From a virus, in IMG/VR virus record IMGVR_UViG_3300009091_000040, positions 1 through 32,895 of that record: DNA of 32,895 nt; one strand, given 5' to 3'. Positions 2,862 through 30,309 of the stretch are shown here, piece by piece. Each line of letters begins with the position of its first letter. The first letter of the stretch is position 1. The notes beneath the pieces were generated by a model. It searched no databases, was not told the DNA's origin, and saw nothing but the letters and a program-made list of their open reading frames with translations. Both the position numbers and the translations under genes were made by a program.

Positions 2862-4100
2862 ATGAAGATCATCGACACCTTGCCGTTCCGCTACGAACTG
2901 ACCGAGTCGGGCACCGAGGGTGGCCCGCTTCGGGTTCGCGGAATTTTCCAGCGCGCCGACGAGAAGAACGCCAACGGGCGCATCTACCCTCGGGCGCTCT
3001 GGGAGCGGATCCTCGGCTCGAGGGAAGTCTCGGAGGCCATCGGTCGGCGCCGGATGATCGGCGAGGTGGACCATCCGGTCGAGAGCGAGATGAAGCTCGG
3101 TCGGGCCGCCCATCTGGTCACCGCCCTCTCGCTCAACGAGTCGGGCGAGGTGATCGGAGAGTTCGAGATCCTGCCCACGGCGGCGGGCAAGCACCTCGAG
3201 AGCCTGCTCAAGGCCGGGGTCGAGTGTGGCATCAGTTCGCGGGGGGAGGGGTCGACGGTCTCGCGCAACGGTAGCGAGATGATCGCCGACGACTACCGCC
3301 TGCTCACCTTCGATGTCGTCGCGTCGCCCTCGACGCGCGGAGCCTTCCCTCAAGTCGTCCAGGAATCCCAAACTGCGGAGGATCGCAACGCCATGCTGCC
3401 CACCTTCAACGAAGTCTCCGAGCGCACCCAGTCGATTCTGGAGGTGGATCTCTCCAAGACGACCCAGGCGCAGCGGTCTCAGATCCGCACCGAGATCCCG
3501 TCTTTGGTCGAGACCCTCGACCGGATCGCGGCCAACGACCCCGGCTACGGCAGCCTGTGCAAGGGCAAGGTCGAGCAGTTGCTGGCCCGCGCCCGGGTGC
3601 TCGAGAGCAAGTCCGCTCCCCCGGTGGTCGAGGCCCAGGTCGACGCCGCCGAGAAGGTGATCGAGGAGATCTCCCGCCAGGCCAAGCAGGTCGTGCTCGA
3701 GTCGGTCGGCAAGAGCCGCAAGCTCGCCGAGGAGCTGGCTCGCACCCGCCGGGCGCTCGCCGAGGCCCTCCAGGTGGGCGAGAAGCTGCTCGAGCGCTAC
3801 AAGCACCGCCTGCGCGAGAACCGCCTGATGGAGTCGGCGGGCGACCAGATCCTCGCCGAGTACACCGAGCTCTCCGGCTACCTCAAGCAGGTGCGCGGCG
3901 TGGCCGAGTCCCGCCGCCCCGCCCGCAAGGCCGCTCCGGCCCAGCCCGCCAAGAAGGAGTCGGTGTCCTCCCGGCGCGTGATCCGGGAGCTGGTCGAGTC
4001 GGGCAAGCGTCGCGTGAAGCTCGAGGAGCGGGGTAGCGACCCCTCGGGCAAGGATCCGATCTTCGAGCAGATGCGCGGCATCAACAGGCTGCGGTTCTAG
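2862..4100 (+). CDS. Prohead core protease (T4 gp21-like, peptidase S80 type) with C-terminal scaffold-like region
   Basis: This is a 412-residue protein. The first 165 residues match the T4 gp21 prohead protease family. They have MIGEVDHP with candidate catalytic His71 and GISSRGEGS with candidate nucleophile Ser125/Ser126. They open with a typical beta-rich segment (GIFQRADEKNANGRIYP). This enzyme cleaves scaffold and head proteins inside the prohead. Residues about 180-345 are helical and coiled-coil-like (KSRKLAEELARTRRALAEAL), as expected of a scaffold core, so protease and scaffold appear fused. The C-terminal 60 residues are basic. They carry repeated x-E-S motifs (KKESVSS, ELVESGK), which may be self-cleavage sites. 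I chose the ATG at 2862. A longer TTG start at 2796 is possible but has poorer support. The capsid gene follows. Confidence 0.88.
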   Translation: MKIIDTLPFRYELTESGTEGGPLRVRGIFQRADEKNANGRIYPRALWERILGSREVSEAIGRRRMIGEVDHPVESEMKLGRAAHLVTALSLNESGEVIGEFEILPTAAGKHLESLLKAGVECGISSRGEGSTVSRNGSEMIADDYRLLTFDVVASPSTRGAFPQVVQESQTAEDRNAMLPTFNEVSERTQSILEVDLSKTTQAQRSQIRTEIPSLVETLDRIAANDPGYGSLCKGKVEQLLARARVLESKSAPPVVEAQVDAAEKVIEEISRQAKQVVLESVGKSRKLAEELARTRRALAEALQVGEKLLERYKHRLRENRLMESAGDQILAEYTELSGYLKQVRGVAESRRPARKAAPAQPAKKESVSSRRVIRELVESGKRRVKLEERGSDPSGKDPIFEQMRGINRLRF

Positions 4101-4160
4101 GACATCAACGACCAACGGACGAATCAGGACAGTCAACGGACCTGACGAGGAGAAAGAACC

Positions 4161-5558
4161 ATGCAGGACAACGCCGAACTCACTTTCCAGGAGATGCGCC
4201 GTCAGGGCCGGGCACTCGCCGAGGGCCGGTGGCGCAAGCTGTGCGGTGACCTTCTCCAGAAGGACGAGGAGAAGGCCATCATGACCGCGATCCTGCTCGA
4301 GAACGAGCGCAAGGGTCTCGATCGGCTCGACGAGGACGTGAAGATGCTCAACGTCGGCTCGTTCGACCGCTTCGCCTTCCCGATGATCCGGGCGATCTAC
4401 CCGAATCTCGTGTCGACCGAGCTGGTCAGCGTGCAGCCGATGCAGGGCCCGACCTCCATGATCTTCTACATGGACACCCGCTACGCGGTGACCAAGGGTT
4501 CGGCCGTCGCCGGCCAGACCTCGCTGTCCCCGCTCGAGGGCCACACCGGGCCGAAGAGCTTCACCTCGGAGCTCATCGACCACGAGACGCTGGTCACGGT
4601 CGCCGGCACCGACGACACGCCGACCATCCCGACCATCGGCTGGCTGCCCATCCGTCCGGGCTCCTTCTACATCTACGCCACGGTCGCCGCGGCCACCGTC
4701 ACCGGTCACGACAACGGCAACGGGCTCATCACCGGCACGGGCATCGACTCCGGCACGATCGACTACACGACCGGCGCGGTCGCCATCGACTACACCACGG
4801 CCCCGGACAACCCGTCCGAGATCTGGTGCACCTACCGGTACGTCTCGGAGGGCAACACCCAGCGTCCGGAGCTCGACATCATCCTGACCTCGGCCGTCGT
4901 GCTGGCCGAGACCCAGTCGCTCGTGACCAACTGGTCGGTCGAGTCGGAGCAGGACTTCCGCGCGGTGCACGGCATCGACGCGCAGGTCACGCTGATGTCC
5001 GAGATCGCGGAGAACATCCGCTTCGAGATCGACCGCGAGATCGTCAACGACCTGTGGACCCTCTCGGGTCCCGCCGTCGACGTGACCTGGGACTACACCC
5101 CCCCGACCGGCATCGACTTCTACCGCCACCAGCTCACCTTCGTCAACGCGCTGGTGCAGGCGTCCAACGTCATCTTCCAGCGCACCCGAGGCAAGGGCCG
5201 CGGCAACTGGATGGTCTGCGGCACCAACGTCTCCACGGTGATCGAGGCCCTGCCGCAGTTCGTCTCGGCCGACTACGGCGACGCCGAGGGCGTCGTCTAC
5301 ATCGGCCAGCTCGGCTCGCTCAAGATCTACAAGGACCCGTGGTTCGAGACCGACTACGCCCTCATGGGCTACAAGGGCTCGACCTGGCTCCGCGCGGGCT
5401 ACGTCTACGCCCCCTACGTGCCCCTCTGGCGCACCCCGATCGTGACCCTGACCGACATCAAGCGCCGGGTCGGCATGATGACCCGGTACGGCAAGAAGAC
5501 GATCAACGACAAGTACTACGTCAAGATCTATGTGGACAATTTCGGAGTGATGGCGTAA
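4161..5558 (+). CDS. Major capsid protein (T4 gp23-like, HK97 fold)
   Basis: This is a 465-residue protein with a strong leader (GAGGAG 4147-4152) directly after the prohead protease. NLVSTELVSVQPMQGPTSMIFYM (residues about 81-103) closely matches the gp23 signature in which NL is followed by VQPM-GPT. Later GRGNWMVCGTNV and the C-terminal RYGKKTINDKYYVKIYV are also typical. The N-terminal 60 residues are helical and charged. They include LAEG and LLEN, which fit the L-x-E cleavage rule of gp21 and may mark a removable delta-like propeptide. Residues about 155-235 form a Gly/Thr-rich beta insertion (GTIDYTTGAVAIDYTT) absent from T4 gp23 as I remember it. This insertion could be a surface-exposed insertion domain. 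It is followed by a terminator, as befits a highly expressed gene. Confidence 0.93.
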   Translation: MQDNAELTFQEMRRQGRALAEGRWRKLCGDLLQKDEEKAIMTAILLENERKGLDRLDEDVKMLNVGSFDRFAFPMIRAIYPNLVSTELVSVQPMQGPTSMIFYMDTRYAVTKGSAVAGQTSLSPLEGHTGPKSFTSELIDHETLVTVAGTDDTPTIPTIGWLPIRPGSFYIYATVAAATVTGHDNGNGLITGTGIDSGTIDYTTGAVAIDYTTAPDNPSEIWCTYRYVSEGNTQRPELDIILTSAVVLAETQSLVTNWSVESEQDFRAVHGIDAQVTLMSEIAENIRFEIDREIVNDLWTLSGPAVDVTWDYTPPTGIDFYRHQLTFVNALVQASNVIFQRTRGKGRGNWMVCGTNVSTVIEALPQFVSADYGDAEGVVYIGQLGSLKIYKDPWFETDYALMGYKGSTWLRAGYVYAPYVPLWRTPIVTLTDIKRRVGMMTRYGKKTINDKYYVKIYVDNFGVMA

Positions 5559-5589
5559 GCCAGACTTCGGAGTCCACGTAAAGACCTGG

Positions 5590-5623
5590 GGGGGTCGGGC
5601 CGGACTTCGGTCCGACCCCCTTT
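5590..5623 (+). terminator. Intrinsic terminator after the major capsid gene
   Basis: A GC-rich hairpin pairs 5590-5602 with 5608-5620 (13 pairs, one G-U, loop GACTT) and is followed by TTTCAGTTT. An alternative inner fold uses a CTTCGG loop. It lies 32 bases after the capsid stop and would separate capsid mRNA from the HNH gene. Confidence 0.8.
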
Positions 5624-5636
5624 CAGTTTCAAGGGG

Positions 5637-6347
5637 ATGATGGAAGAGACCAAGAAGTGTTCCGCCTGCGGGGCCGAGTCCCCCAAAGCCGACTTCCCTC
5701 GCAAGAGCGGGAAGTGCCGCAGGTGCGTCAACGCTCGGGTCCGGGCCTACCAGCAGAAGAACAAGGAAAAGGGTGTGGAGCGGGTCCGGGCTTGGCGCAT
5801 GAAGAACCTCGAGCGTCGTCGGCAGCAAGCCCGGGAGTGCGCTCGGCGCCGCCGTGCGGACCCGGAGATCGGCAAGCGGTTGAACGAGGAAAGGAAGGAG
5901 TACTCCAAGTCGGAGCGGGCCAAGGAGCTTCGGAAGGCGCGGGTTCCCACGGACGCCCACAAGGAGTACATGCGGAGCTACTTGAAGGCCTATACTCCGC
6001 AGTGGCGGCACAGGAACCCAGATAAGGAAAGGGAGATCCAGCGTCGTCGGAGGGCCAGGATCAGAACGACGGCGGTCGAGGCCTTTCACGAGTTGGAGAT
6101 CTACCGCAGGGATCGGGGCATCTGCCAGCTCTGCAACTCGGCGGATCCCATCGACCTGAGGTTGCCGCACCTGCATCCGAAGGGTTTCACCCTCGACCAC
6201 ATCATCTCCTTGGCCGAGGGTGGCAGTCATACGAGGGCCAATGTTCAGGCTGCTCACCGGATCTGCAACTCCCGTAAGGGGAGGGGCACCGGGGGCAGAT
6301 TTCGTGCTGGGGCGAGCCTCCGACTCTTCCTCCTTGGGTCGGGGTGA
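5637..6347 (+). CDS. HNH endonuclease with N-terminal zinc-binding motif (homing-type)
   Basis: This is a 236-residue protein. The N-terminus has CxxC pairs at Cys8/Cys11 and Cys27/Cys30, a zinc-ribbon-like element. Residues 35-155 are extremely Arg/Lys-rich and helical, suited to DNA binding. The C-terminus is an HNH nuclease: Cys163/Cys166, then LDHIISLAEGG (His188), Asn202 and AHRICNSRKG (His207, Cys210). Such free-standing HNH genes in phages typically behave as mobile homing endonucleases. The gene lies between capsid and ChaB-like genes with a terminator-like hairpin on each side, which supports insertion as a cassette. Two adjacent ATGs (5637 and 5640) can serve as start. The second has better spacing from AAGGGG. 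I see no intron or intein boundary in the flanking genes. Confidence 0.9.
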   Translation: MMEETKKCSACGAESPKADFPRKSGKCRRCVNARVRAYQQKNKEKGVERVRAWRMKNLERRRQQARECARRRRADPEIGKRLNEERKEYSKSERAKELRKARVPTDAHKEYMRSYLKAYTPQWRHRNPDKEREIQRRRRARIRTTAVEAFHELEIYRRDRGICQLCNSADPIDLRLPHLHPKGFTLDHIISLAEGGSHTRANVQAAHRICNSRKGRGTGGRFRAGASLRLFLLGSG

Positions 6348-6352
6348 AACGA

Positions 6353-6392
6353 GGGGGGCCGGGCCGAGCGGGGCTCGGCCCCCCTAACTTTT
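6353..6392 (+). terminator. Intrinsic terminator after the HNH gene
   Basis: A perfect 9-pair stem joins 6361-6369 (GGGCCGAGC) to 6373-6381, with loop GGG. The upstream G run 6353-6358 can also pair with the C run. TAACTTTT follows. It closes the HNH unit a few bases after its stop. Confidence 0.75.
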
Positions 6393-6419
6393 CAAGGGAA
6401 GGGAGCGCGGGGGGACGAG

Positions 6420-7070
6420 ATGCCGTACCGATCCGTCTCGGACATCAACAAGTCCAAGCGTCGGGGCATGACCCCGCACGGTGCCCGCATCTACAAGTCC
6501 GCCTTCAACAATGCCCTGAAGCACTACGGGGACGAGTCCAAGGCCCACGCTGTGGCTAATGCCGCCGTGACCAAGGCAGGCGAGCGGCGCAAGAAGCGGG
6601 AGTCGTTCCGGGGTCTTGCTCTGGGCGAGGCGACCGAACTGGTGGCCCGCAGCGGAGCGGACTTCGCGGACCGGCTGGCGGACCTGCTCAAGTCCCGTGG
6701 CTGGTACGTGCACACCCCGAACCAGATGGTGGCTCCGGGCCAGCCGGTGCTCTTCGTGGCCTCCCCGAATTATCACCACTTCGACTACTCCTTGGAGGTC
6801 CTCCGGCAGTTTCGGAAAGCCGTTCGGGACGAGAACTCTGAGGAGGCCAGCCGCCTGCTTCTTGTGCTGCGGGAGATGGTCGAGAAGGGGATGATCGTCG
6901 TCGTCACCCAAGAGTGGGGCAAGCCGGACTGGTACAACGTCGCCGACCAGTTGCGGGCTCATGGGGTCAACCTCAGGTTTTCCCAGGAGAGGGGGCCCGA
7001 CTCCTTCTTCGCGGTCGAGGGGATCCGCAGGGGCCGAGGGGACCAAGACAGGAAGTCGGCGGCCTTCTAG
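6420..7070 (+). CDS. ChaB-like N-terminal domain protein
   Basis: This is a 216-residue protein. Residues 1-60 (MPYRSVSDINKSKRRGMTPH, ARIYKSAFNNAL, AHAVANAAV) match the ChaB family pattern: MPY, then LP-like loop, IY..AFN.A and A...AW..V. ChaB was named as a cation-transport regulator, but ChaB-like proteins are also common in viruses and their role there is unclear. Residues 61-66 (KKRESF) form an x-E-S motif at the domain border. Residues 68-200 form a separate alpha/beta domain with no family that I recognise. It has a hydrophobic strand MIVVVTQEWGKPDWY and repeated helices. No clear Shine-Dalgarno stands out beyond GGGGACGAG just before the ATG. ChaB assignment is good for the N-terminus only. 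Confidence 0.72.
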   Translation: MPYRSVSDINKSKRRGMTPHGARIYKSAFNNALKHYGDESKAHAVANAAVTKAGERRKKRESFRGLALGEATELVARSGADFADRLADLLKSRGWYVHTPNQMVAPGQPVLFVASPNYHHFDYSLEVLRQFRKAVRDENSEEASRLLLVLREMVEKGMIVVVTQEWGKPDWYNVADQLRAHGVNLRFSQERGPDSFFAVEGIRRGRGDQDRKSAAF

Positions 7071-7095
7071 GCGCCGGACTGACGAGGAGATCGAG

Positions 7096-7581
7096 ATGCC
7101 GATGTACTACCGCAACCCGAAGAGCTACAGCGTCCAGGTCCCCTTGGCGGACCACCGGGGCAGCGTCCATCTGCGCCCCGGCGACGTGGTCGAGGGCGAC
7201 TTCTTCGCCCGCTACTCCTGGCTCGAGCCCGTGCTCCATCCGCTGCCCCCGGGCACCCGGATCGCCTACTCCCAGGCCGAGAAGGACCAGAAGTATCAGG
7301 ACGGTCTGGCCAAGCTCGCGGCGGTGCGCACCAAGCCCGCCCCGGAGCCCGAGGTGGGCTTCGAGGTCGCCGTCGAGGACATCCCGCAGCCGGAGCCCGA
7401 GCTCCACCTCGAGGCCGAGGAGGTCGGGGAGGAGCGCGACGAGACCGCCGCCGAGTCCGCCGCCGCCGACGCGGTCGAGGACGAAGCCGCCGAGGTCAAG
7501 CAGGAGGAAGCCGAGGCGATCAAGGACGCGGCGGACCGGAAGGCTGCCCGCTCGCCCAAGCACGGCAAGGGCCGCAAGTAG
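7096..7581 (+). CDS. Small protein with N-terminal beta domain and Glu/Ala-rich tail
   Basis: This is a 161-residue protein. The start at 7096 is supported by GAGGAGA at 7084-7090. A longer frame from 6961 would run through the previous gene and is rejected. Residues 1-60 are a compact beta-rich unit (YYRNPKSYSVQVPLADHRG, then LRPGDVVEGDFFARY). Residues 75-150 are a low-complexity acidic stretch of Glu, Ala and Pro. The C-terminus turns basic (SPKHGKGRK). The layout of a small folded head plus a long acidic tail is common in virion proteins and chaperone-like head proteins. I do not recognise a family. Confidence 0.7.
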   Translation: MPMYYRNPKSYSVQVPLADHRGSVHLRPGDVVEGDFFARYSWLEPVLHPLPPGTRIAYSQAEKDQKYQDGLAKLAAVRTKPAPEPEVGFEVAVEDIPQPEPELHLEAEEVGEERDETAAESAAADAVEDEAAEVKQEEAEAIKDAADRKAARSPKHGKGRK

Positions 7582-7602
7582 GACTTCCGCTTGGGGAAGC
7601 CG

Positions 7603-8730
7603 ATGGGGCGTTTCCGGGACCTGATCGAGAAGGACGATCCGCCGAAGAAGAAGAGCAAGGCGGCTGCGCCGAAGGCTTCTCTGCAGGTCAAGGATCGTCC
7701 GAAAGCGGACCTCAAGACGGCGGTCCGGGTCCCGGGCACGCTGTCCACCCGCGCGCCCAGCCACATCTCGGTCCCGTCGGACCCGGAGACGCTGGCCAAG
7801 CTGAACCAGCACGCGCAGGCCTTGGCCGCCTTGGCCGACCTCGACGATCAGGACGCCGATCTCGAGGTGGGCGAGCCCGAACTTCCCGTCACCCCGTCCA
7901 ACCTGCCGGCGGTCATCAACCGCGAGATGATCCACACGGGCGGTCGGATGGCGGTCCAGTGGTATCAGGTCCGCCAGTTGCCCGGCTACGCCCGCAACGC
8001 GATCCGCCAGATGGGCAAGGAGGTCTTCTCCTCCTTCACCAGCACGCCCATCGAGGACATCTTCGTGCTCTCCACCCTGACCAATACGGAGACCGAGGTC
8101 CGGGGCGTGGCGGGCTGGATCGTCAAGAACGGTCGCTCCCGGGACAACCTGGCGATGCAGTTCCAGGAGAAGTTGCCCGGCTACGAGGCGGATGTCCGGG
8201 TCTTCGACGTGGGCGGCTACCAGTTCGCCATCGTCAAGGACTTCATGGGCCTCTACATCTACGGGTACGTCTCGAAGGATGGCCGGTACTTCGATCCGCA
8301 GACCCGGAGGTACCTCGAGTCCTACCTGCCGGTCGCCATCCTCTGCCTCGACTGCGAGTGGATCTACTCGGGCAGCTCGGTCTGCCCGAAGTGCGGCTCC
8401 GACGAGCAGTTCCCGCTCGCCCGGGCGCTCAACCGCCAGCTTGGGGCCGTGAAGGCGATGCCCGAGCCCAGCTACCAGCGCCTGCGCCCCGCCGTGGGCG
8501 AGTCGGTCAACGAGGGCCCCCTGTGGAACAAGGTCAAGCGGCTGGCCCGGAAGGCCAAGCGCCGGGTGATGGGCAAGCCCGCTCGCAGGCCCGCCCTCAA
8601 GAGCACTCCGTGGGGCCCCGTGCCCAAGCGCCGGGCCCGGCGGGAGAGCGTGTCGACCAGCTTCCGGACGGCGATCCGGGAGTCCATGGGCGGGGATGAC
8701 CCGACTTGGAAGCCCGAGGTGAACCGATGA
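7603..8730 (+). CDS. Zinc-knuckle protein with basic C-terminal tail, probable virion protein
   Basis: This is a 375-residue protein starting at the ATG at 7603. A TTG at 7591 is an alternative. Residues 1-70 are basic and disordered. Residues 105-245 form a folded domain of unknown type (MAVQWYQVRQLPGYARNAIR onwards). A four-Cys zinc knuckle follows, CLDC at 248/251 and CPKC at 261/264. The last 75 residues are a striking run of Lys/Arg (VKRLARKAKRR and PKRRARR) interrupted by x-E-S motifs: GESVNEG at 299-305, RRESVS near 348 and IRESMGG at 358-364. This resembles a DNA-binding segment that the prohead protease could trim or release. It overlaps the next gene by ATGA. Confidence 0.75.
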   Translation: MGRFRDLIEKDDPPKKKSKAAAPKASLQVKDRPKADLKTAVRVPGTLSTRAPSHISVPSDPETLAKLNQHAQALAALADLDDQDADLEVGEPELPVTPSNLPAVINREMIHTGGRMAVQWYQVRQLPGYARNAIRQMGKEVFSSFTSTPIEDIFVLSTLTNTETEVRGVAGWIVKNGRSRDNLAMQFQEKLPGYEADVRVFDVGGYQFAIVKDFMGLYIYGYVSKDGRYFDPQTRRYLESYLPVAILCLDCEWIYSGSSVCPKCGSDEQFPLARALNRQLGAVKAMPEPSYQRLRPAVGESVNEGPLWNKVKRLARKAKRRVMGKPARRPALKSTPWGPVPKRRARRESVSTSFRTAIRESMGGDDPTWKPEVNR

Positions 8731-9569
8731 CCGAGTCCGTGGTCGTCGCCAAGCCTCGCGTCCACACCGCGAACTTCCTCCGGGCCATCCGGCTGGAGTT
8801 GGGCTCGGACCGCGGCTACGGGGTCAAGGTCGAGTTGTCGGACGGCCAGATCGTCCACGCCCTGCGCGAGGCGATCAACGAGTACTCGCGCTACCACCCG
8901 CAGAAGACCTACCAGACCTTCGACACCTCCGTCGGGACGTTCGAGTACACGCCGGACCCGGCGATCCGGGGCATCCTGAAGATCGACCTCGTGCGCAACA
9001 CCCAGTTGGGTCTCGCCCTGCCCGAGCTCACCTTCATCGGCGGGCGGATCCTCGGGCATGGAGGCGTGCTCAACTACAAGATCCCCTACGAGTATGCGGT
9101 CTTCCAAGAGTGGCGCCGCGGCGCCGAGCAGATCTTCTCCCAGGAGCCGGTCTACGAGTTCGTCCCGTCGGCCAATAAGCTCTACGTCTACAGCCCGGCT
9201 TGCCCGGTGCGGGTCTACCTAGTCGGGGCCATCGACCTCGACCCCGGTTTCGACGAGGAGTTGCTCGAGGATGTCCCCGAGGAGCTCGACGACACCGAGC
9301 CCGGCCCGGTGGTGACGGAGCGCTTGGACGCGACCCTCGGGCTGATCCCGGCGAGGCACCTGATCTGGATCCGCAAGCTGACCCAAGCCCGGTCGATGCA
9401 GATCTTGGGTCGCATGCGGTCCAAGTACGGCTCGATCCCGACCGTCGAGGGCAAGGACATGCAACTCGACGGGGACGCGATGAAGGTCGAGGGCAAGGGC
9501 TTGTGGGACGAGACGATCGAGCAGATGCGCACGGCTTCTCTTGGGGAGTTGGGGCCCCTTTTCGCCTAG
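8727..9569 (+). CDS. Neck/head completion protein (T4 gp13-like)
   Basis: This is a 280-residue protein starting by ATGA overlap. The N-terminus FLRAIRLELG, then VKVELSDGQIVHALREAINEYSRYHP, follows the gp13 pattern. In that family a helix is followed by V-x-L-T/S-D-x-Q-I and a second helix ending in Y-H. gp13 joins the portal vertex to the tail in T4. Residues about 70-160 are mixed beta and Tyr-rich (KIPYEYAVFQEW, then KLYVYSP). An acidic linker at about 175-195 precedes a helical C-terminus. The gene lies downstream of the capsid genes and upstream of gp14- and gp15-like genes, which matches T4 order. The call is from remembered family patterns and should be read as probable. Confidence 0.6.
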   Translation: MTESVVVAKPRVHTANFLRAIRLELGSDRGYGVKVELSDGQIVHALREAINEYSRYHPQKTYQTFDTSVGTFEYTPDPAIRGILKIDLVRNTQLGLALPELTFIGGRILGHGGVLNYKIPYEYAVFQEWRRGAEQIFSQEPVYEFVPSANKLYVYSPACPVRVYLVGAIDLDPGFDEELLEDVPEELDDTEPGPVVTERLDATLGLIPARHLIWIRKLTQARSMQILGRMRSKYGSIPTVEGKDMQLDGDAMKVEGKGLWDETIEQMRTASLGELGPLFA

Positions 9570-9585: not shown

Positions 9586-11532
9586 ATGGCTATCGGCGAC
9601 GACTTCTCCGTAGACTTCACCACCGGCAACATCCGGCACGTCTCGGGCACCACGAACTACACGGTGCTCCAGCTTCACCGCTGGCTCCAGGACCTGGCCG
9701 ACAACGCCTCGGTCTCGGGCGGCTCCAACGACGTGCTCGACATCACGGCGCCGACTCCCTCCGAGCGTTCGACCGACGAGATCATCACGCTGCTCGGCAA
9801 CTACAACATCGACGCCACGGCGGCCGAGTTCCTCTACGGGGGCTCGATCCGTCAGGGGTCCGGGGCCACCGAGGTGCTCTACTCGGGCCTGCGCGTGCTG
9901 GGCTCGGTGATCTCGGCGACGACCCAGATCCAGGTCGTGCAGGACAAGGCCCTCTACGACGGGGATGCTCCGTTCTGGGGGGACCAGTCGACGGGCGGGT
10001 ACAACGGCAACGCGGCGGGCGGCGTGCTGATGCGCTGCCTCATCCGGTCCCGGGCCTACGGCTGCGACATCGACGAGCAGAAGGTCATCGTCCAGATCCG
10101 CAACTACGGGGACTCCTACGCCTTCTTCAACGTGACCCTCGGCCAGGGTGAGGCCGTGGCCGCCGTCGCCAGCGTGGACGACCCGCAGAACAGCACGGCC
10201 CAGGGCACGGTGACCGCCTACACCCACATCACCAACGTCGAGGGCTTCCAGCAGATCGACATCGGGGACGGCAACGGCAACCAGCCGTACTACTCCAAGT
10301 GGAGCTACACGATCGACACGAGCGGGGACCAGCTTCGTGCCGTGTGGGAGTTCTGCAAGGACCTGACGGCCACCGGGACCGCCAAGACCATCCACGGCAT
10401 CGACGGCGAGATGTTCCTCGGGATCACCCACACCTACGTCTACGACAACCTCTCGGGTACCTTCACCGAGGACGAGACCGTGGTGTGGGGGACCCGGGTC
10501 ACCTACGACACGCTCACTGGCGGCACCTTCGCCGCCGGCAACTACGTCCGGATCGGGGCGAACGGAGCCGCCGGGCGCATCATGTACGACAATGGCACGA
10601 CCAACTTCACGGTCGCGCTCGAAGACACCTCGATCACGCTGCTCGACAACGATGTCATCACCGAGTACAACAAGGCGACGGGGGCCACCGGGGTGACGGC
10701 TGCGATCGCCACCACGATCCTCGACAACGACAAGGCGGGCGGCTCGGGGATCCTTCTCGCCGCCGACACGGGCGGGGTCAAGCATCACATCCAGCTCCGC
10801 ACGGGCTCGGCTCCGGTCAACAACCTCCAGGTCCGGGGCCTGACCAGCGCGGCGACGGCCGACGTGAACATCACCGTCACCACCCGAACGGTCAACCCGG
10901 TCTTCCTCGGCTCCTACGTCGGCACGATGATCGGAGGCTTCGGCGTCGGCTTCGCGGCGACCGACCTGACCGCTTCCGACAGCGTCATCGACCTCGACGG
11001 GGACACCAACACGCCCCCGAACAACGTGACCTGGACCCTCGACGGGGTCGTCTCCGGTGAGGACTACGTCCTCGTCGGCCCGAAGGCTGGCGGCAACGAC
11101 TTCAACTTCACGCAGATGACGCTCAACGGGACCCTGAACGGTCCCGGAGTCACCTCGGTCGTGGTCACCTCGATCCCGGCGAACACCCCCCAGACCGGCT
11201 TCCTGCGGATCACCCTCGACGACGGGCGCCGCCGCAAGGTGGCCTACACCGCCCACAACGGCACGACCACGTTCACCATCGGCTCGACGAACTTCTCGGA
11301 TCCGGACGACGCGACGACGGGCAACGGGGTCATGGTGGCCTACATCGACAAGCTGGCGACCGCCACCTCCGAGGCCTACACGACCATCTACACCTCCGGT
11401 CCGCAGTCGCTGTGGGTCCGCGTGCGCGATGGCGGCACGGTCAACAACACGCCGATCAAGACCTACGAGGCCCAGTCCTCGCTCGGCCCGGCGGGGGGCA
11501 GCGCGACGGCGTCGAGGATCGCCGATTCGTAG
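9586..11532 (+). CDS. Large beta-rich virion surface or fibre-like protein
   Basis: This is a 648-residue protein rich in Gly, Thr, Asn and Asp, almost free of Lys runs and Cys, as typical of phage fibres and decoration proteins. The first 200 residues look like a globular domain (NYTVLQLHRWLQDLADNA). Residues about 280-370 contain repeated turns such as GTFTEDETVVWG, GTFAAGNYVRIGANG and NGTTNFTVALED. This style is common in tail-fibre beta modules. The C-terminal 150 residues are Thr/Ser-rich. It opens a run of beta-rich proteins between gp13-like and gp14-like genes. Whether it is a head fibre, neck whisker or tail adhesin cannot be decided from sequence. Confidence 0.75.
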   Translation: MAIGDDFSVDFTTGNIRHVSGTTNYTVLQLHRWLQDLADNASVSGGSNDVLDITAPTPSERSTDEIITLLGNYNIDATAAEFLYGGSIRQGSGATEVLYSGLRVLGSVISATTQIQVVQDKALYDGDAPFWGDQSTGGYNGNAAGGVLMRCLIRSRAYGCDIDEQKVIVQIRNYGDSYAFFNVTLGQGEAVAAVASVDDPQNSTAQGTVTAYTHITNVEGFQQIDIGDGNGNQPYYSKWSYTIDTSGDQLRAVWEFCKDLTATGTAKTIHGIDGEMFLGITHTYVYDNLSGTFTEDETVVWGTRVTYDTLTGGTFAAGNYVRIGANGAAGRIMYDNGTTNFTVALEDTSITLLDNDVITEYNKATGATGVTAAIATTILDNDKAGGSGILLAADTGGVKHHIQLRTGSAPVNNLQVRGLTSAATADVNITVTTRTVNPVFLGSYVGTMIGGFGVGFAATDLTASDSVIDLDGDTNTPPNNVTWTLDGVVSGEDYVLVGPKAGGNDFNFTQMTLNGTLNGPGVTSVVVTSIPANTPQTGFLRITLDDGRRRKVAYTAHNGTTTFTIGSTNFSDPDDATTGNGVMVAYIDKLATATSEAYTTIYTSGPQSLWVRVRDGGTVNNTPIKTYEAQSSLGPAGGSATASRIADS

Positions 11533-11599
11533 GCCCGGGCGGATGGGACAGAGGCTGTGTTCTATCGCTTTGGGTTCCAGTTGGTAGGGGGCTGATCTC

Positions 11600-13480
11600 A
11601 TGTCCGCCCCAGCGTGGGCTACTGACCTCACCGACATCTGGATCGACCCCACCACCACGACCGGGTTCACGGCCTTGGGTGGTGGTGCCTCTGGCTTGCC
11701 GACGGCGGGCGAGACGGACTTCTACATCCAGGCCGGGGCGACCAACAAGACCTGCATGTCCAAGGCCGCGTGGACCAACGCGATCAAGGGCTTCATCTAC
11801 AGCGCCGGGACGTTCTCCGTCGGCACCGACGGTGCGGTGATCTGCTGGGGCTTCTACTCCGCTGCGGCGTCTCTGGCTACCCGCCAGCCCTCGGCCAACA
11901 ACCCCGGCGGGCTCATGGTCATCGTGGGCAGCGCGACGACGGCCTACTGGCGCTTCAACGTCGGCGGCTCGGACACGTTGGCCTTCGACTCGTGGGTACC
12001 CTACGTGGTCAACCCCGACAACTCGCTCCACGACGGCGGAGCGGTCGGGTCTCCCTCGGGTACCGAGTCCTACGTCGGCATCGAGGCGAACCTGCCGACG
12101 ACCGCCGGCCCGACCAAGGGCAACCCGCTCGCCCAGGACGCGGTCCGCTATGGCCGGTGCCGGATCGACTACACGCTGGGGGACCTCGCGAACGGCTACA
12201 ACACCTTCTCCGGGGCCAACGGATACGCCAACGCCGAGCTCCGTCGCTGGGGCCTGATCGAGTTGACCGGCGGTGTCTACAAGGTCCAAGGGTTCCACAG
12301 CTTCGGCACCAGCGGCACGCTGGTGGACTTTAGGGACTCCAACAAGACTCTCATCATCCGGGACACCTGCCGCCACGTCACCTCCGGGTTCAACCGGTTC
12401 GAGGTGATGAACTCCTCGTCCGTCGTCCAGTGGACCAACATCTCCATCCTCTCCCTGTCCACCGCCTCTCCGGGGACGTTCGTCATCACCGCTGGCACCG
12501 TGACGTGGTCCCTCTGCCAGTTCACCGACATGGGGGCGTTCACCCTGCTGTCCTCGACGGCGGCGACGGACTGCGTGTGGCGGCGCTGCCTGGCAATCAC
12601 GGCTCCGGGCTCCAACCTCTACGGCTCGACGATCGCCGAGTCCGCCGTGGCTGCCGATGCCTCGGCCCTCGTGTGGAACGTGGCCACGGACCCCGGCGGG
12701 GGCAGCCCCCCCGGAAAACTCGATGGGATGACGTTCACGAAGGGGACCAACGCCCATCACGCCATCGAGTTCGGCACCTCGGTCCCCACGGACATGACCT
12801 TGCGGGGGTGCACGTTCTCGGGTTTCAACGCCAGCAACGGGCAGAACGATTCGACCTTCAACTTCCTGCCGACGAGCGGCACCTACACGCTGAACCTCGT
12901 CGGCTGCACCGGCAACGTCTCGGTCAAGACGACCGGCACCGCCGTCGTCAACGTCGTGCAGGACCCGATCACGACGACGATCACGGTCAAGGACATCAAC
13001 ACGGGCAACCCGATCGAGAACGCCCGGGTCCTGCTGGTCGCGTCCGACGGGACCGGCCCCCTGCCCTACCAGGAGTCGGTGACTCAGATCACACGGTCGG
13101 GCTCGACGGCGACGGTCTCCCACACCGGCCATGGGCTCGTCACCGACGACTTCGCCCTGATCTCGGGGGCCAACGAGGACGAGTACAACGGCTGCTACCA
13201 GATCACCAGGATCAACGACGACTCCTACAGCTACACCGTAGCTGGGACCCCGAACACCCCGGCCACCGGTACGATCACCGCGACGGGAGGCTACTTCAAC
13301 ACCCTGACGAACGCATCGGGTATCGTCACGGACTCGCGCACGATCAACGCGGATCAGCCCTTCACGGGTCGTGTGCGGAAAGGCTCCTCCGCGCCCTACT
13401 ACGTGTCGAGCCCGATCTCCGGGACGATCGACAGCGTGGTGGGGTACTCGACCACGGTGTTGCTGATTCCGGACCAGTGA
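11600..13480 (+). CDS. Beta-helix-like virion protein with C-terminal carbohydrate-binding-style modules
   Basis: This is a 626-residue protein with AGGGGG ahead of the ATG. The N-terminal 450 residues are Ser/Thr/Gly-rich and beta-predicted. Short repeating strands occur around residues 240-450 (LIIRDTCRHV, WTNISILSL, WSLCQFTDM, MTLRGCTFSG), which look like right-handed beta-helix rungs with inward hydrophobic residues. Residues about 455-485 start an Ig-like module (TTITVKDINTGNPIENARVLL). A GHGLVTDDFALISGANEDEYNG unit follows near residue 515. That unit is a widespread phage surface module and is also seen in the gene at 14770. The protein is probably a receptor- or surface-binding adhesin. 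Confidence 0.72.
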   Translation: MSAPAWATDLTDIWIDPTTTTGFTALGGGASGLPTAGETDFYIQAGATNKTCMSKAAWTNAIKGFIYSAGTFSVGTDGAVICWGFYSAAASLATRQPSANNPGGLMVIVGSATTAYWRFNVGGSDTLAFDSWVPYVVNPDNSLHDGGAVGSPSGTESYVGIEANLPTTAGPTKGNPLAQDAVRYGRCRIDYTLGDLANGYNTFSGANGYANAELRRWGLIELTGGVYKVQGFHSFGTSGTLVDFRDSNKTLIIRDTCRHVTSGFNRFEVMNSSSVVQWTNISILSLSTASPGTFVITAGTVTWSLCQFTDMGAFTLLSSTAATDCVWRRCLAITAPGSNLYGSTIAESAVAADASALVWNVATDPGGGSPPGKLDGMTFTKGTNAHHAIEFGTSVPTDMTLRGCTFSGFNASNGQNDSTFNFLPTSGTYTLNLVGCTGNVSVKTTGTAVVNVVQDPITTTITVKDINTGNPIENARVLLVASDGTGPLPYQESVTQITRSGSTATVSHTGHGLVTDDFALISGANEDEYNGCYQITRINDDSYSYTVAGTPNTPATGTITATGGYFNTLTNASGIVTDSRTINADQPFTGRVRKGSSAPYYVSSPISGTIDSVVGYSTTVLLIPDQ

Positions 13481-20072: not shown

Positions 20073-21842
20073 ATGAGCACTCTGGTTCAACTCCTGCCGC
20101 AGATGCTGGAGCGCTACTCCGGAAAGACTCTGCCGGTCGTCATGGGCTACACGGTCTTTCGGCTGGAGGGCAAGCCCACCCCTCGGCAGTCCCGTCGGCT
20201 CCGGATCGGGGACCAAGTGACCTTAGACGAGCGGACGGACGAGCTCTGGGGGATCGAGGACGATCCGGACTGCGGGGTCTTCTTCGAGTGCGCCCGCTTC
20301 CCGGGCGAGACCTTGGTGGCGACCGCCTACGAGTTCTTCTCCTTCGTCGGGACCCCCTTCCGGCAGAAGGCCTTGAACTACGACCCGGCCATGCCGGACA
20401 ACGAGCCTGAGGAGCCCTTGGCGGAGTCCCAGTTGAGCGCCCGGGAACTCTCCCTCCGCTTGCTCCAGCAGTACCGGGGGGGCCAGCCCTTGCGGGTCGT
20501 CACCCCGATGGCTGCCTTTCACCGGGGTCTGGATGGCGAAGTAGAAGAGGACGCGACCATCCCCGTGGGGGCCAAGATCCGGGTCTTCGCTCCCCGTGAG
20601 AGTTGGAAGTACGACAACTACACGGAGATCGAATGGGTCGGTCACGATCCCGACGACTGGTCCGTCGATACGATCGAGTTGTGGAGCTCGGTCAAGACGC
20701 CCTTCTTGAAGGCCTTCCTCAGGTCGAGGCGCCTTCGCTTCGGCAACGAGCCCGAAGAGCCGCTCGAGTCGGTCCGGGAGGCCTACGCCTTCTTGGGGGG
20801 TCGGCTCACCTCCTACTGGCTGGGCCCGGCGGGCCAAGCGATTCAGGTGTATAACCACGGCGACGCTGCCGGGGACATCCTGAACCGCCCTGGGGACTAC
20901 AGCGCCTTCGACGAGTTGATCCGGCTGGGCTGGGTCCGAGTAGTCATCGAGCCCCGGGAGTCGACGATCTGGATCAACGACGTGCCGAAACCCAACCCGC
21001 ACCAGAAGTCTTGGCTTCGGCACCAGTCCGAGGTCTCGGGCTTCTCCGTGCGGGACCAGCAACTGCGCCGGGTCTGGCTGGGCGAGTCGGTTTCCTTCCG
21101 GGGCCTGATCGAGATGGCCGTGGACCCGGAGTCGTTGTTCCCGATGGTCGAGACCCTGCTCGGCAAGGAGTTGGTGCTCACCAAGGAGATGACGGCGGCA
21201 AACTTGTGGGGGAATACCAGCAGGTATACGCACTCCAGGGTGCCCCGGGGGAATACGAACTATCCCTTGAAGATTGAGCGTTTGACCATCGCTAGGGGAC
21301 TGGTCGTGAAGCCCTTGGAGCTTGACCGCCAGATGAACCTCGTGTCGTTCGAATACAAGGGCCACGATGGCACGATGCACTTGGCGCACACGATCCCCTT
21401 GGTCCTGCTCACGTCGACCAAGAACCCGTTCAACAAACTCGTCCGCAAGAAGGCTTTGTCCGGCAACCATGGGTTCTGGGCTCCGCACATGCGCAACGAG
21501 CCCGAAGAGCCGCTCGAGTCGATCCGGGAGTCCATCCCCTTGGGATGGCAGAGCATCTGGCTCGACCCCAGCGGCAACGACCACGAGGTGTACTCCCACG
21601 ACGAGTTCGCCTTCGCCCAGGTGCACCACGCCTTGGACCATCAAGATGCCCGCGTGGCGATGTTGGAGGACGGCTGGGCCCGGATCTCCATCGAGCCGAA
21701 ACTCGAGGTGATCTGGGTCGAGCACTTGGTCCCCCTGACCCGGGAACAAGAGAACTGGCTTCGCTTCATGGCGGAGGAGACGGACTTCGAGGTGAAGGAT
21801 ACCGAGAACCGCCCGCTGCGGATGGTATCGGCCCATGGCTGA
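20073..21842 (+). CDS. Multi-domain neck-region protein with repeated NEPEEPLES linkers
   Basis: This is a 589-residue protein beginning two bases after the preceding stop. It is built of alternating repeated units. Unit X occurs at about residues 1-108, 123-223 and 350-470 (MLERYSGKTLPVVMGYTVF and LLQQYRGGQPLRVVTPMAAF correspond). Each unit X ends in TPF/NPF then, after 11-25 residues, the linker NEPEEPL at residues 110, 225 and 475. Unit W occurs at about 235-335 and 485-585. It shares GWxRxxIEP, IW and QxxWLRxxxExxxFxVxD. The linkers carry LAES, LESVREA and LESIRES motifs, possible protease sites. A fourth unit X lies in the gene at 22734. No function is recognised. Position between gp14- and gp15-like genes suggests neck or tail-terminus assembly. 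Confidence 0.7.
   Translation: MSTLVQLLPQMLERYSGKTLPVVMGYTVFRLEGKPTPRQSRRLRIGDQVTLDERTDELWGIEDDPDCGVFFECARFPGETLVATAYEFFSFVGTPFRQKALNYDPAMPDNEPEEPLAESQLSARELSLRLLQQYRGGQPLRVVTPMAAFHRGLDGEVEEDATIPVGAKIRVFAPRESWKYDNYTEIEWVGHDPDDWSVDTIELWSSVKTPFLKAFLRSRRLRFGNEPEEPLESVREAYAFLGGRLTSYWLGPAGQAIQVYNHGDAAGDILNRPGDYSAFDELIRLGWVRVVIEPRESTIWINDVPKPNPHQKSWLRHQSEVSGFSVRDQQLRRVWLGESVSFRGLIEMAVDPESLFPMVETLLGKELVLTKEMTAANLWGNTSRYTHSRVPRGNTNYPLKIERLTIARGLVVKPLELDRQMNLVSFEYKGHDGTMHLAHTIPLVLLTSTKNPFNKLVRKKALSGNHGFWAPHMRNEPEEPLESIRESIPLGWQSIWLDPSGNDHEVYSHDEFAFAQVHHALDHQDARVAMLEDGWARISIEPKLEVIWVEHLVPLTREQENWLRFMAEETDFEVKDTENRPLRMVSAHG
20744..20780 (+). repeat. Direct repeat copy 1 encoding NEPEEPLESVRE linker
   Basis: This 37-base stretch differs by one base from 21494-21530 in the same gene, much closer than the surrounding sequence. 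It encodes an acidic linker with an x-E-S type motif. A third, diverged copy lies near 20400. Confidence 0.85.
21494..21530 (+). repeat. Direct repeat copy 2 encoding NEPEEPLESIRE linker
   Basis: This is the partner of 20744-20780, 36 of 37 bases identical. The mismatch changes Val to Ile. The neighbouring unit W sequences on the 3' side are only moderately similar at protein level. Confidence 0.85.
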
Positions 21843-24134: not shown

Positions 24135-24359
24135 ATGGCGTCTTCTTCGATCGAAAACAAGACCCGGCAGTCGATCCCGATCCTGTACAAGGACCCGGAC
24201 GACTTGACCCAGCTCAAGTTCGTCGTCCTGCGGGACCGCGAGCGGGTCGTCATGGACGACGAGGTGCTCTCGCAGGACATCCTGGACAAGGAGTCGGCGG
24301 GCTATCTCCTGAAGGCCGTTTCGACCGAGACCCCGGACTCGCGGTTCGACTACACCTGA
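24135..24359 (+). CDS. Small protein ahead of the sheath gene
   Basis: This is a 74-residue acidic protein (NKTRQSIPILYKDPDDLTQL, KFVVLRDRERVVMDDEVLSQ) with a leader AGGGGAGG about 12 bases before the ATG. It is probably a small beta/alpha fold. The 60-base stretch upstream is A/T-richer than its surroundings and might hold a promoter, but no clean motif can be named. Its gene lies 14 bases before the sheath start, so the two are likely co-translated. No family is known to me. Confidence 0.68.
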   Translation: MASSSIENKTRQSIPILYKDPDDLTQLKFVVLRDRERVVMDDEVLSQDILDKESAGYLLKAVSTETPDSRFDYT

Positions 24360-24373
24360 TACGGAGCTGACCG

Positions 24374-26602: not shown

Positions 26603-26615
26603 TCCGAGTCGCTCG

Positions 26616-28433
26616 ATGAACCGTAAGCCCGCATCCACCGAAGCTCCCGAGGGTCTCCTCCGTCTCGACGAGGAGCAGATCCCCGAGGACCTCGAGGACT
26701 TCGAAGACGACGAAGAGATGGCCGACGAGGACGATCTGCCGGAGCCCGCCGACTGCCCCGTGTGCGGCGGGCCTGGGGTCCCCCTCGGCGCTCTGGGTCG
26801 TCTCGAGCACTACCGGTGCCGGGACTGTGGCATGGACTTCAACCGGGATCCCAACGAGTCGGTCAACGAGCAGAGGCTGGACGAGTTCTTCTTCTACGCC
26901 GTCAAGCCAACTCGTTCGGCGATGGCCTTTTCTGTCCAAGAGTTGGGGGGCTCTCCAGCCTCTTCGTCGCCCGACTTGGAGATTCATCCGGGAGAGGTTT
27001 TTCGGGTGTTGAAATTCGGGCAGCCGCTTTCGTCGATCGAGTTCACGGACGGGAGATTGGCCCTGATTCCTTACGAGGAGTTGCTCGATCTGGGTCGCGA
27101 GGCAGGGTTGCCTCCGTATCTCTATGCGGAGTCGCTCGACGAGATCGGGTTCGGCGGGGTCTCGACGGTCGTCGACCTCGCCAAGAACGTCCCCGGAGTC
27201 AACCCGAAGGGCTTGGCCAAGGTGGCCCTGCCCGTCGTGAGTCCTGGGGTCGCGCTCATGAAGAAGTCCAAGGAGAACTCGAGCCTCGATCCCAGCCTGG
27301 TCCCCTTCTTGACCGAAGAGGAGTTGGCCCTGTTCGAAGCCCGGCCGAAGAAGTGGAGCAACTTCAAGAAGGCGGCCTTCTCCACTCTCCAAGGAGCCGC
27401 TAAGGGGATGGTGGGCGGAGCCGCCGTAGGTGCCCTTGCGGGGGGTGCAATGGGGACCGTCGGCGGGGCTGCGGGTGGCGCACTCATGGGACGGCAGATG
27501 GGCCAGACCGGGGCTGGGGCTCTTGGTGGGGCTATCGGTGCCGGTGCCGTCGGAACTCTTGGCGGGGGCCTGGCAGGGATCAAGTACGGGACCGCAATCG
27601 GAGCCGGCTACGGCCTCTACAAGCACTTCCAGCGGCAGAGAAAGGCCAAGCCGAAGGAGTCCCAGATCAACCCCGGTCTGATCCCCTTCCTGACCGAAGA
27701 GGAGTTGGCCCTGACCGAGGGCCCAGCGTGGAGCAGGTTCAAGTCCCGCTGGAAGGCCGCCAAGCCCGCCATGAGACAGGACCTGCGCCGGACGGGCCGT
27801 CGGATGAAGTACGGTTTGGGCGGAGCCGGGGTCGGGGCTCTGGCGGGCACGGTGTTGGGCGGTCCCATCGGGACGGGTCTCGGGGCCGTCGTCGGGAGTG
27901 CCATGGGCACCTCCTACGCCAAGGGCATCGAGCACGGGGAGCGGAGCCGCCGTCCCCGCCGCAAGCGGAGCGAAGCCGTGGACCAGATCGCAACCGACAA
28001 CACCCGGGACAAGGCGCGCAGCTACGCCTCGACCCAGCTCGATCTTTCGGGCGCCGAGCTCGACCTCTACGTGGACGGCTACGAAGCAGGCCGCTCCGGC
28101 CTGGACTACGGTCCCTCCGATGGAGCCCTCGAGACGACGCCCTACGACATGGGGTTCTCCGACGGCCAGAGCGACAAGGTGGGCTTCGGTCCGCTGTCGA
28201 CGCTGGGCGAGGACGTGACCACGGCCGACGTGGGCAACCCGGGCACGCTGACGGGCTTCGGGGACGACCCCGCGAGCCCCGTCCGGGTCCGCACGGCAGA
28301 GGATGGCAGTTTCTCGATCTTCGTCGTCGAGAACGGCGAGGAGATCCCGCTCGAAACCGGCCTGAAGGGCGAGGCCGCCCAGCAGGTCATCGACGACTAT
28401 CGCAAGATGTTCGCCGCCGACACGGCGTCCTGA
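26616..28433 (+). CDS. Zinc-ribbon, glycine-zipper multi-domain protein with repeated FLTEEELAL linkers
   Basis: This is a 605-residue protein. The N-terminus is acidic. A zinc ribbon occupies residues 47-71 (CPVCGG and CRDCGMDF). Residues about 95-175 use A/T-richer codons. At residues 231 and 358 the same FLTEEELAL segment is followed by FEA or TEG and then a Trp/Lys-rich stretch. Gly/Ala zipper segments (about 259-336 and 400-431, GGAMGTVGGAAGGALMG style) resemble membrane-inserting or packing motifs. The region around 440-520 is acidic. A small beta domain (GSFSIFVVENGEEIPLETG) ends the chain. The F/T-E-A/G steps may be protease sites. Its role is unknown. It could be a virion-internal or ejected membrane-active protein. 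Confidence 0.7.
   Translation: MNRKPASTEAPEGLLRLDEEQIPEDLEDFEDDEEMADEDDLPEPADCPVCGGPGVPLGALGRLEHYRCRDCGMDFNRDPNESVNEQRLDEFFFYAVKPTRSAMAFSVQELGGSPASSSPDLEIHPGEVFRVLKFGQPLSSIEFTDGRLALIPYEELLDLGREAGLPPYLYAESLDEIGFGGVSTVVDLAKNVPGVNPKGLAKVALPVVSPGVALMKKSKENSSLDPSLVPFLTEEELALFEARPKKWSNFKKAAFSTLQGAAKGMVGGAAVGALAGGAMGTVGGAAGGALMGRQMGQTGAGALGGAIGAGAVGTLGGGLAGIKYGTAIGAGYGLYKHFQRQRKAKPKESQINPGLIPFLTEEELALTEGPAWSRFKSRWKAAKPAMRQDLRRTGRRMKYGLGGAGVGALAGTVLGGPIGTGLGAVVGSAMGTSYAKGIEHGERSRRPRRKRSEAVDQIATDNTRDKARSYASTQLDLSGAELDLYVDGYEAGRSGLDYGPSDGALETTPYDMGFSDGQSDKVGFGPLSTLGEDVTTADVGNPGTLTGFGDDPASPVRVRTAEDGSFSIFVVENGEEIPLETGLKGEAAQQVIDDYRKMFAADTAS
27303..27332 (+). repeat. Direct repeat copy 1 encoding PFLTEEELAL
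   Basis: This 30-base stretch matches 27684-27713 at 29 of 30 bases (TTG versus CTG codon). The encoded segment precedes a candidate protease site L-F-E followed by A. Confidence 0.85.
27684..27713 (+). repeat. Direct repeat copy 2 encoding PFLTEEELAL
   Basis: This is the partner of 27303-27332 in the same gene. Here the segment is followed by L-T-E then G and a Trp/Arg/Lys-rich stretch (PAWSRFKSRWKAAK). Confidence 0.85.
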
Positions 28434-28455
28434 GAAAGAACGAAGGGGACACGAC

Positions 28456-30309
28456 ATGAAGAGCAAGGCGCAGCTTCTGATCGAGCAGGTCTCGCGCGGT
28501 CGGGACCTCGGGACCGCGGTCTCCGCGTTCCTCAGCGATGTCTTCGAGGACGAGGACGCCGGGGTCATCCTGCCCGCCACCGACATCCAGCCGGGCGACG
28601 TGATGCCCGACGTGGGCCCGGAGGCCGCCGCCGAGGGCGACGAGGAGGAGGTCGGCCCGGACGGCGCCGTCCTGCCGTCGGCCGACGAGGTCCCGGTCGA
28701 GATCCAGATGCCGCCCGAGGAGTTGGCCACGGCCGATCCCGGGCAGGTGCCGGACGCGCCCGCCGCGGCGGCGACCCCGGAGGCCGAGAAGGATGGCGGC
28801 TTCATGGAGGCCCGCAAGCGCCTGCGCTTCCGGATCGCCGAGCACCTGCGCCGCCTCCGCGAGGAGGACGACGAGGACGGCGACGAGGAGGACGAGGAGG
28901 GCGAGGGGGAGGAGAACGGCGAGGAGAACGGCGAGGAGGGCGACGAGGAGGGGGAGGAGAACGAAAACCCTTTCGCTGAGTCGGTCGAGGAGGACGACGA
29001 GTCCCCGATGTCCGGCCCGACCGACGGCACGATCCCGCTGCCCGGGGACGAGGAGAACGCCGAGCCGGAGGAGGTTCCGGTCGACAGCGGCGACGCCACC
29101 CCGATCGTGGCCTCCACCGAGGGCCGCGTCTCGCGCAACGCCGCGATCCGGGAGAGCCGTTCGATCGGCCACTTCCGCACGGCGGACAAGACCCGCCAGG
29201 TCGGCGTGCCCACCTCGAGCGGCCAGATGCGCGAGTCGGTCTCCCGCACCTTCGCCGGGGCCTTCTCGGCCCTGTTCGAGGGCGACCAGGAGGACGTGAG
29301 CTTCCCCAACTCGGACGACGAAGACCCCGAGGACCAGGGCGGCGAGTTCGAGCCGGAGGACGGGGAGAAGAAGGTCCTGCTCGACGAGCCCGAGGGCGAG
29401 GAGCAGAACGAGGACGACCTCGTCAACAAGCTCCAGAACGCCGGCGACACGCTGGATGACCTGAGCAACAAGACCGACTCCGAACCGATCCGCAAGCCCG
29501 AGAGCTACCAGCGGGGGGGCGTCCAGCGTCAGGACGAGATCGGCCTCCCTTTCGGTAAGGCCCACCGCGCCCGGGTGGCGATCAAGCAAGCCAACAGGGC
29601 TGCCAAGTACGCGGGCAGGGCGGCTGCCCTCAAGACGACCGCCCAAGTCCAGTTCCCCGGGATCAACCCCGCCAGCAAGAAGTTCTGGAAGCGAGGCGTC
29701 TCGAACCTCGCGAACCCCCTCAAGGCCGCCAACGCCGCTTTGAAGGCCCGGGCGGGTGCGCGGTCCCAAGGCTACTCCAAGGCGGCCAAGATGTACGGCT
29801 ACTCCGAGGTGGAGGCTCAGCCGACCGGCGAGCGGGTCGACGAGCGCATGCCTGTGGGTGTCCGTCAGGCCAAGTCGGCCCTCAAGAAGGCGGGTGGCGT
29901 CTACAAGAAGGGGTTCAAGGGCCTCAAGCGGGCGGCGACCGAGCCCCTTCGGGTCGCAGGGAGCAACCTTTTGGCACTGCAGGCCACCGCAGCCGGTACG
30001 CGGGCGGGGCTCAAGCACCTCCGCAACTGGGAGCGCTCCTACTCCAAGGCCTACAAGCAGGCGATGCGCAAGAGCGAGTCCCTCAACGAGGGCGTCTTCG
30101 ACAACCAGATGCAGATCGGCGAGCGGATCGTCTACAACGGCCCGAACCCGGCGATCCCGAAGGGCACCCCGGGCCGCATCACGGACAACGTCCCGTCCGG
30201 GCTGGGCTACCACTACCTCGTCCAGCTCGAGGGTTTCCCCCGCGTCGTGCAGGTCAACGACCACGAGATCTCCCGGGCCAACACGAACCCGGTCCTCGGC
30301 AACAACTGA
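28456..30309 (+). CDS. Acidic/basic multi-domain head-type protein with IRES motifs and C-terminal SH3-like domain
   Basis: This is a 617-residue protein with an AAGGGG leader. Residues 1-22 (SKAQLLIEQVSRGRDLGTAV) are helical. Residues about 30-225 are strongly acidic, with a Glu/Gly/Asp low-complexity block (about 138-180). IRES and MRES motifs follow at residues 231-234 and 258-261, and LFEG near 272. Residues about 355-545 are Lys/Arg/Ala-rich and helical (KAHRARVAIKQANRAAKYAG), like DNA-condensing head proteins. The last 60 residues (GERIVYNGPNPAIPKGTPGR) look like an SH3/KOW barrel. The acidic-to-basic layout with protease-like sites suggests a processed internal head protein. Function is inferred. 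No family is recognised. Confidence 0.72.
   Translation: MKSKAQLLIEQVSRGRDLGTAVSAFLSDVFEDEDAGVILPATDIQPGDVMPDVGPEAAAEGDEEEVGPDGAVLPSADEVPVEIQMPPEELATADPGQVPDAPAAAATPEAEKDGGFMEARKRLRFRIAEHLRRLREEDDEDGDEEDEEGEGEENGEENGEEGDEEGEENENPFAESVEEDDESPMSGPTDGTIPLPGDEENAEPEEVPVDSGDATPIVASTEGRVSRNAAIRESRSIGHFRTADKTRQVGVPTSSGQMRESVSRTFAGAFSALFEGDQEDVSFPNSDDEDPEDQGGEFEPEDGEKKVLLDEPEGEEQNEDDLVNKLQNAGDTLDDLSNKTDSEPIRKPESYQRGGVQRQDEIGLPFGKAHRARVAIKQANRAAKYAGRAAALKTTAQVQFPGINPASKKFWKRGVSNLANPLKAANAALKARAGARSQGYSKAAKMYGYSEVEAQPTGERVDERMPVGVRQAKSALKKAGGVYKKGFKGLKRAATEPLRVAGSNLLALQATAAGTRAGLKHLRNWERSYSKAYKQAMRKSESLNEGVFDNQMQIGERIVYNGPNPAIPKGTPGRITDNVPSGLGYHYLVQLEGFPRVVQVNDHEISRANTNPVLGNN

Follow-up and report, generated by a model that had tools for sequence, protein, structure and literature searches.

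The stretch of DNA analysed here, the window, is a viral record of 32,895 bases. It carries a head and tail module of the T4 type, in which neck, hub, sheath, and tail tube proteins are encoded along with a protease and a capsid protein. It very probably specifies head maturation of the conventional T4 type, carried out by a protease fused to a scaffold-like half, with the short glutamate motifs of its other proteins being mostly background and internal duplications. An initial annotation had read these motifs, of the form [ILVM]-x-E-[SAG], as a processing programme wider than that of T4, run by a gp21-like protease. The protease (supported by Pfam, structure 5jbl, and the catalytic triad) and the candidate sites in its own chain held up, but the programme reaching neck and tail proteins did not.

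The protease is encoded at 2862..4100 (+, plus strand) as a protein of 412 aa in which one reading frame joins the prohead protease to a C-terminal half that is helical and scaffold-like. It matches PF03420 at 59 bits (cut-off 27) and PHROG 207, head maturation protease, and aligns by sequence with the T4 gp21 structure 5jbl (E = 1e-25). The protein model also matches 5jbl by fold (E = 1.4e-8, TM 0.70 of the target); gp21 ranked first in the fold search, followed by the herpesvirus UL26 proteases (assemblins). H71, S125, and D151 align with the T4 catalytic triad, H85, S140, and D168. Thus, by profile, catalytic residues, and fold, the enzyme is a member of Peptidase S77, the T4 gp21 family. 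The model shows a confident domain at residues 24–167, a low-confidence gap at 168–177 (pLDDT < 50), and long helices at 182–357. The low-confidence segments 1–19, 168–177, and 358–366 contain E15, E168, and E366.

E168 (3363..3365, +) lies at the junction of the protease and the scaffold-like half. VQE168/SQTAE, where the slash marks the putative cut, aligns with ITE187/SQTAE of T4 gp21, and the low-confidence break in the model coincides with it. From the alignment and the model, E168 is most likely the self-release site. C-terminal cleavage of T4 gp21 is thought to occur, but is not settled (PMC9026906, PMC5694885). E15 of LTE/S (2904..2906, +), in the low-pLDDT segment 1–19, is a candidate N-terminal self-cleavage site. 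It is conserved in relatives, whose distinct N-termini have a hydrophobic-x-E site in 63 of 63 cases, with L at P3 in 56 and S at P1′ in 53. This may be a self-cleavage site or, equally, a conserved structural turn. N-terminal self-cleavage has been proposed in work on T4 (PMC9958956). E366 of KKE/SVS (3957..3959, +) is in a loop of low pLDDT (358–366) beside the C-terminal helices. In the relatives numbered L002–L084, the protease tails have conserved [KR][KR]E[SN][VYF] and KNE[SGA] words, and self-cleavage with a basic residue at P3 may occur in this region. Judged by sequence, the protease protein's own sites, above all VQE168/S, are good cleavage candidates.

The scaffold-like half, residues 169–412 (3366..4097, +), has several [LVI]xE[SA] motifs. 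It sits between the protease and the major capsid protein (MCP), matching the position of the scaffold in relatives. A comparison with the relatives' scaffolds by hhalign gave a probability of 0.3%, with no detectable sequence match, so the scaffold role, which we infer, rests on position, modelled helices, and site density. Within this half, E324 of LME/S (3831..3833, +) is a candidate scaffold cleavage site that resembles sites in the relatives' scaffolds, such as ENTKLNE/A and RNRILE/S, in an alignment that is not significant.

The protease and scaffold are separate genes in most relatives, whereas in the window the protease and the scaffold-like half are one chain. This fusion is the single unusual trait of an otherwise conventional T4-type system. 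Long fused forms are also found in the viral contigs L012 and L074/L075/L083, in Listeria phage LIS04, and in Bacillus phage SP-15. Like the window, SP-15 (SP15_031) and LIS04 (WJZ23488.1), with proteins of 559–568 aa, as well as L012 and L074, have an N-terminal PF03420 domain with a long C-terminal extension, and then the capsid gene. The SP-15 and LIS04 extensions are coiled-coil-like, similar to the half in the window. However, the C-terminal halves in these four are longer, and the VQESQTAE junction is absent. A capsid-protein tree, with the SP-15 MCP left out, places the window, LIS04, L012, and L074 together with moderate support (81/85) and long branches. The portal genes of L012 (2799–7586, 1595 codons) and L074 (3049–7176, 1375 codons) contain long intein-like insertions, and the SP-15 capsid gene is interrupted by an endonuclease gene. 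Directly after the capsid gene of the window (5637–6347), there is a protein with an HNH-like C-terminal sequence, possibly a homing endonuclease. Outside the phages, herpesvirus UL26 has the same architecture of protease, linker, and helical scaffold, although its fold similarity to the window protein is only distant. The cleavage specificity of UL26 is unlike that of the T4-type protease.

The MCP (4161..5558, +) belongs to the gp23 family (PF07068, 212 bits). E58 of RLDE/DVKM (4332..4334, +) is the predicted boundary between the delta region and the mature capsid protein, and it occupies a homologous position in relatives. Among 38 distinct relatives, 37 have a hydrophobic-x-E sequence before the mature domain, with P1′ mostly V or A. 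In the window P1′ is D, so the S/A/G rule of the initial annotation misses RLDE58/DVK. From these features we infer the following sequence of events. In the prohead, the single chain would cleave itself at VQE168/S, and perhaps at LTE15/S as well, freeing the protease. Once free, the protease would cleave the scaffold half at [LVI]xE sites, and it would trim the MCP at RLDE58/D ahead of DNA packaging. Most of the similar motifs in other proteins would reflect background and duplication within genes rather than a processing programme.

All of the motifs quoted in the initial annotation are present at the residues given: IRESMGG at 358 (gene 7603), IRESRS at 231 and MRESVS at 258 (gene 28456), LESVREA at 231 and LESIRES at 481 (gene 20073), LFEA at 239 and LTEG at 366 (gene 26616), VQESQT at 166 and LMESAG at 322 (protease gene 2862), and KRESF at 59 (gene 6420). 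Charge changes adjoin some of these sites. The motifs had been assigned to linkers, but by a simple composition score the surroundings of the motif glutamates are no more disordered than those of other glutamates. Furthermore, several of the quoted examples are copies of one another and are not independent. LESVREA and LESIRES have a common 7-residue linker and most codons, and LFEA and LTEG lie inside a near codon-for-codon duplicate.

The class [ILVM]-x-E-[SAG] was counted against shuffled sequences and against the mirror motif [SAG]-E-x-[ILVM]. Over all window genes there are 45 motifs (32.6 shuffled), and the protease gene contributes 11 (2.9 shuffled). All genes except the protease have 34, against 30.1 expected (p = 0.24) and 37 of the mirror motif. 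The five other genes named in the initial annotation have 14 (10.4 expected, p = 0.16), and the genes remaining without the protease and these five have 20 (19.5 expected). The excess over shuffled sequence is therefore in the protease gene only, and the original observation is partly confirmed: the motifs are real, but their enrichment is limited. With the strict form [LI]xE[AGS], the protease protein shows a small excess, 5 vs 1.7. Genes 6420, 7603, 20073, 26616, and 28456 jointly have 10 LxE[AGS] sites vs 5.8 (p = 0.07), short of what known substrates show. Over the whole window, targeting-like LxE sites at N-termini occur about as often as chance predicts (3 vs 2.3 expected). As a P1 residue, E ranks first in the protease–scaffold protein, third in the five genes (z 1.7), and second in the rest (z 0.9). 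The counting test is weak for proteins cut once: with 34 observed, 30.1 expected, and an s.d. of 5.2, the 95% limit leaves room for about 14 further true sites in genes other than that of the protease. Proteins cut once could thus escape it, so there may be a few single-site substrates among the genes that have no functional assignment.

RES/ESV was considered as a lineage-specific site and rejected. Among [KR]xx words, [KR]ES ranks first with the repeat-bearing gene 20073 counted, and ES[VIL] then looks enriched too. Without this gene, [KR]ES is only 8th of 273 comparable words, and ES[VIL] is 33rd of 344. The common RES/ESV words might instead be short binding or targeting motifs rather than cleavage sites, as ESVS occurs in three proteins with differing codons. 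Given the ordinary word frequency without gene 20073 and the lack of a known match, we consider this highly improbable.

The same kind of shuffle test, with [LI]xE[AGS] as the motif, was applied to controls, and it is able to detect real substrates that have several sites. The T4 head genes have 21 sites vs 6.6 expected, the T4 tail and neck genes have 16 vs 14.4, and E. coli proteins show no excess. As relatives, we used 80 viral contigs encoding protease relatives, with the genes sorted by position. Observed counts are 4.6 times the shuffled ones for the scaffold, 3.7 times for the protease, 3.6 times for the core gene that precedes the protease, and 2.2 times for the capsid protein. The corresponding factor is 1.28 for genes farther upstream and 1.13 for those that follow the capsid gene, on the neck and tail side. 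The portal bodies of the relatives have 51 sites vs 60 expected, and the 40 portal tails show no overall excess, though L003 and L048 carry sites. E is first among P1 residues in the T4 head proteins and in the scaffold and core proteins of the relatives.

The portal C-termini of L003 (1302–3083) and L048 (4740–6554) end in LTE/SV and LNE/SV, unlike the other portals seen. L048 also encodes a protein (11467–12270) with a scaffold-like tail of basic sequence and evenly spaced TVAE/S, RVDE/G, TLVE/S, and TISE/G. A few small proteins downstream of the MCP in relatives have leaders, e.g., MISFYQMMNLLEAK and MEFKSFYFLIEAK, similar to the capsid-targeting sequences of T4.

These counts bear directly on the proposal that neck and tail-region proteins, too, are cleaved by the protease at I/L/V/M-x-E/S/A/G. 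The proposal accounts for the motifs as quoted, some of them at charge changes, and for the lead of [KR]ES when gene 20073 is counted. However, this word excess shrinks once the repeat gene is removed, the examples are copies, and outside the protease gene there is no excess over composition or over the mirror motif. The downstream genes and portals of the relatives and the T4 tail have none either; the neck and tail side of the relatives is at 1.1x, vs 2.2–4.6x for head genes. Since the motifs outside the protease and capsid proteins are no commoner than chance, the wide programme is unsupported. In addition, a prohead protease works within the prohead, at a stage when neck and tail have yet to be attached (PMC9026906). 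We regard such a programme as very unlikely indeed. Processing wider than in T4 would not be new in any case, because 19 processed proteins have been reported in 201phi2-1, where they are described as head proteins or inferred to be such (PMC9026906), and it is established that proteases of this kind process giant-phage proteins widely (PMC9026906, PMC10052503).

Four motif-bearing proteins need separate consideration. Gene 28456 (28456..30309, +) encodes a protein segmented into acidic and basic stretches, with IRES, MRES, LFEG, LNEG, and an N-terminal LIE10/Q; it has 4 motifs, in line with the 3.3 expected, and it is possibly an additional substrate, the best candidate remaining. The protein of gene 26616 (26616..28433, +) has a segment, L[VI]PFLTEEELALxE[AG], duplicated nearly codon for codon, and each copy is followed by a basic stretch and a glycine-rich one. 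In the protein of gene 7603 (7603..8730, +), ESVNEG and IRESMGG bracket a basic segment of charge +15, an N-terminal LIE is present, and the motif count is 3, with 1.0 expected (p = 0.07). Repeat comparison of the gene 20073 protein (20073..21842, +) shows that NEPEEPL, found at residues 110, 225, and 475, is a linker between repeated domains, with copies 2 and 3 near-identical in codons through LES[VI]RE; its single-sequence model (pLDDT 31) is unusable.

Homologues of the motif-bearing proteins were sought by tblastn in phages and viral contigs, and the search was extended to the whole records behind 20 related loci; for gene 6420, the related loci were searched. Genes 7603, 20073, 26616, and 28456 gave no usable homologues in any searched collection; gene 26616 has no convincing homologue, and the gene 7603 protein has no Pfam or PHROG match. 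The capsid protein as a query against viral and genome contigs yielded nothing usable for finding homologues of these proteins. The first 25 kb of the window matched no similar phage DNA in the searched collection, and no counterpart of gp24, gp67, gp68, or the IPs, the additional capsid, core, and cargo proteins of T4, was identified in the window.

In T4, Alt and the IP proteins are cut at a few LxE sites. By analogy, one to three proteins of the window, 28456 first, then 26616 and 7603, could be ejected proteins or internal proteins of the head whose genes lie among those of the tail, and could be cut at a few LxE sites. The charge-segmented composition agrees with this, LFE/G, LFE/A, and LTE/G fit L-x-E, the 7603 sites flank the +15 segment, and both 28456 and 7603 have LIE at the N-terminus. 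Single-site substrates slip past the counting test, and the core proteins of the relatives are enriched. On the other side, the motif counts are at or near expectation in each of the three proteins, N-terminal LxE is at chance, and the homologue searches found none for them. We consider this extension tentative and rather unlikely; processing of 7603, 26616, 28456, and 20073 at a few sites is possible but unsupported. A more elaborate version, in which E168/S release from a UL26-like single-chain protease–scaffold starts a maturation that also trims 28456, 26616, and 7603 as lineage-specific internal proteins encoded among tail genes, with relaxed P3 as in [KR]E/S, appears improbable.

Conventional maturation by a fused protease–scaffold thus remains our preferred reading. 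The T4 gp21 system resembles the window in family, fold, triad, the L-x-E-type site at the capsid boundary, an ITE/SQTAE-like C-terminal site, and a motif-rich, scaffold-like part, but in the window the protease and scaffold-like half form one chain. phiKZ gp175 and SPN3US gp245 are also proteases, of giant phages, that cut after Glu. The SPN3US enzyme prefers S at P1′ and undergoes C-terminal self-cleavage (PMC10052503), but its P3 preference, A-x-E, differs from that of the candidate sites in the window. For phiKZ and SPN3US, many processed head proteins have been found by mass spectrometry.

A motif as short as this one needs mirror, shuffled, and known-substrate controls before any claim of a processing programme. 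With such controls, scoring each gene class for LxE[AGS] excess distinguishes the motif-rich head genes (scaffold, core, protease, and capsid) from neck and tail-side genes in uncultured T4-type relatives. The fused protease–scaffold parallels, in a phage, the layout of herpesvirus UL26, and it is tractable for studying protease release.
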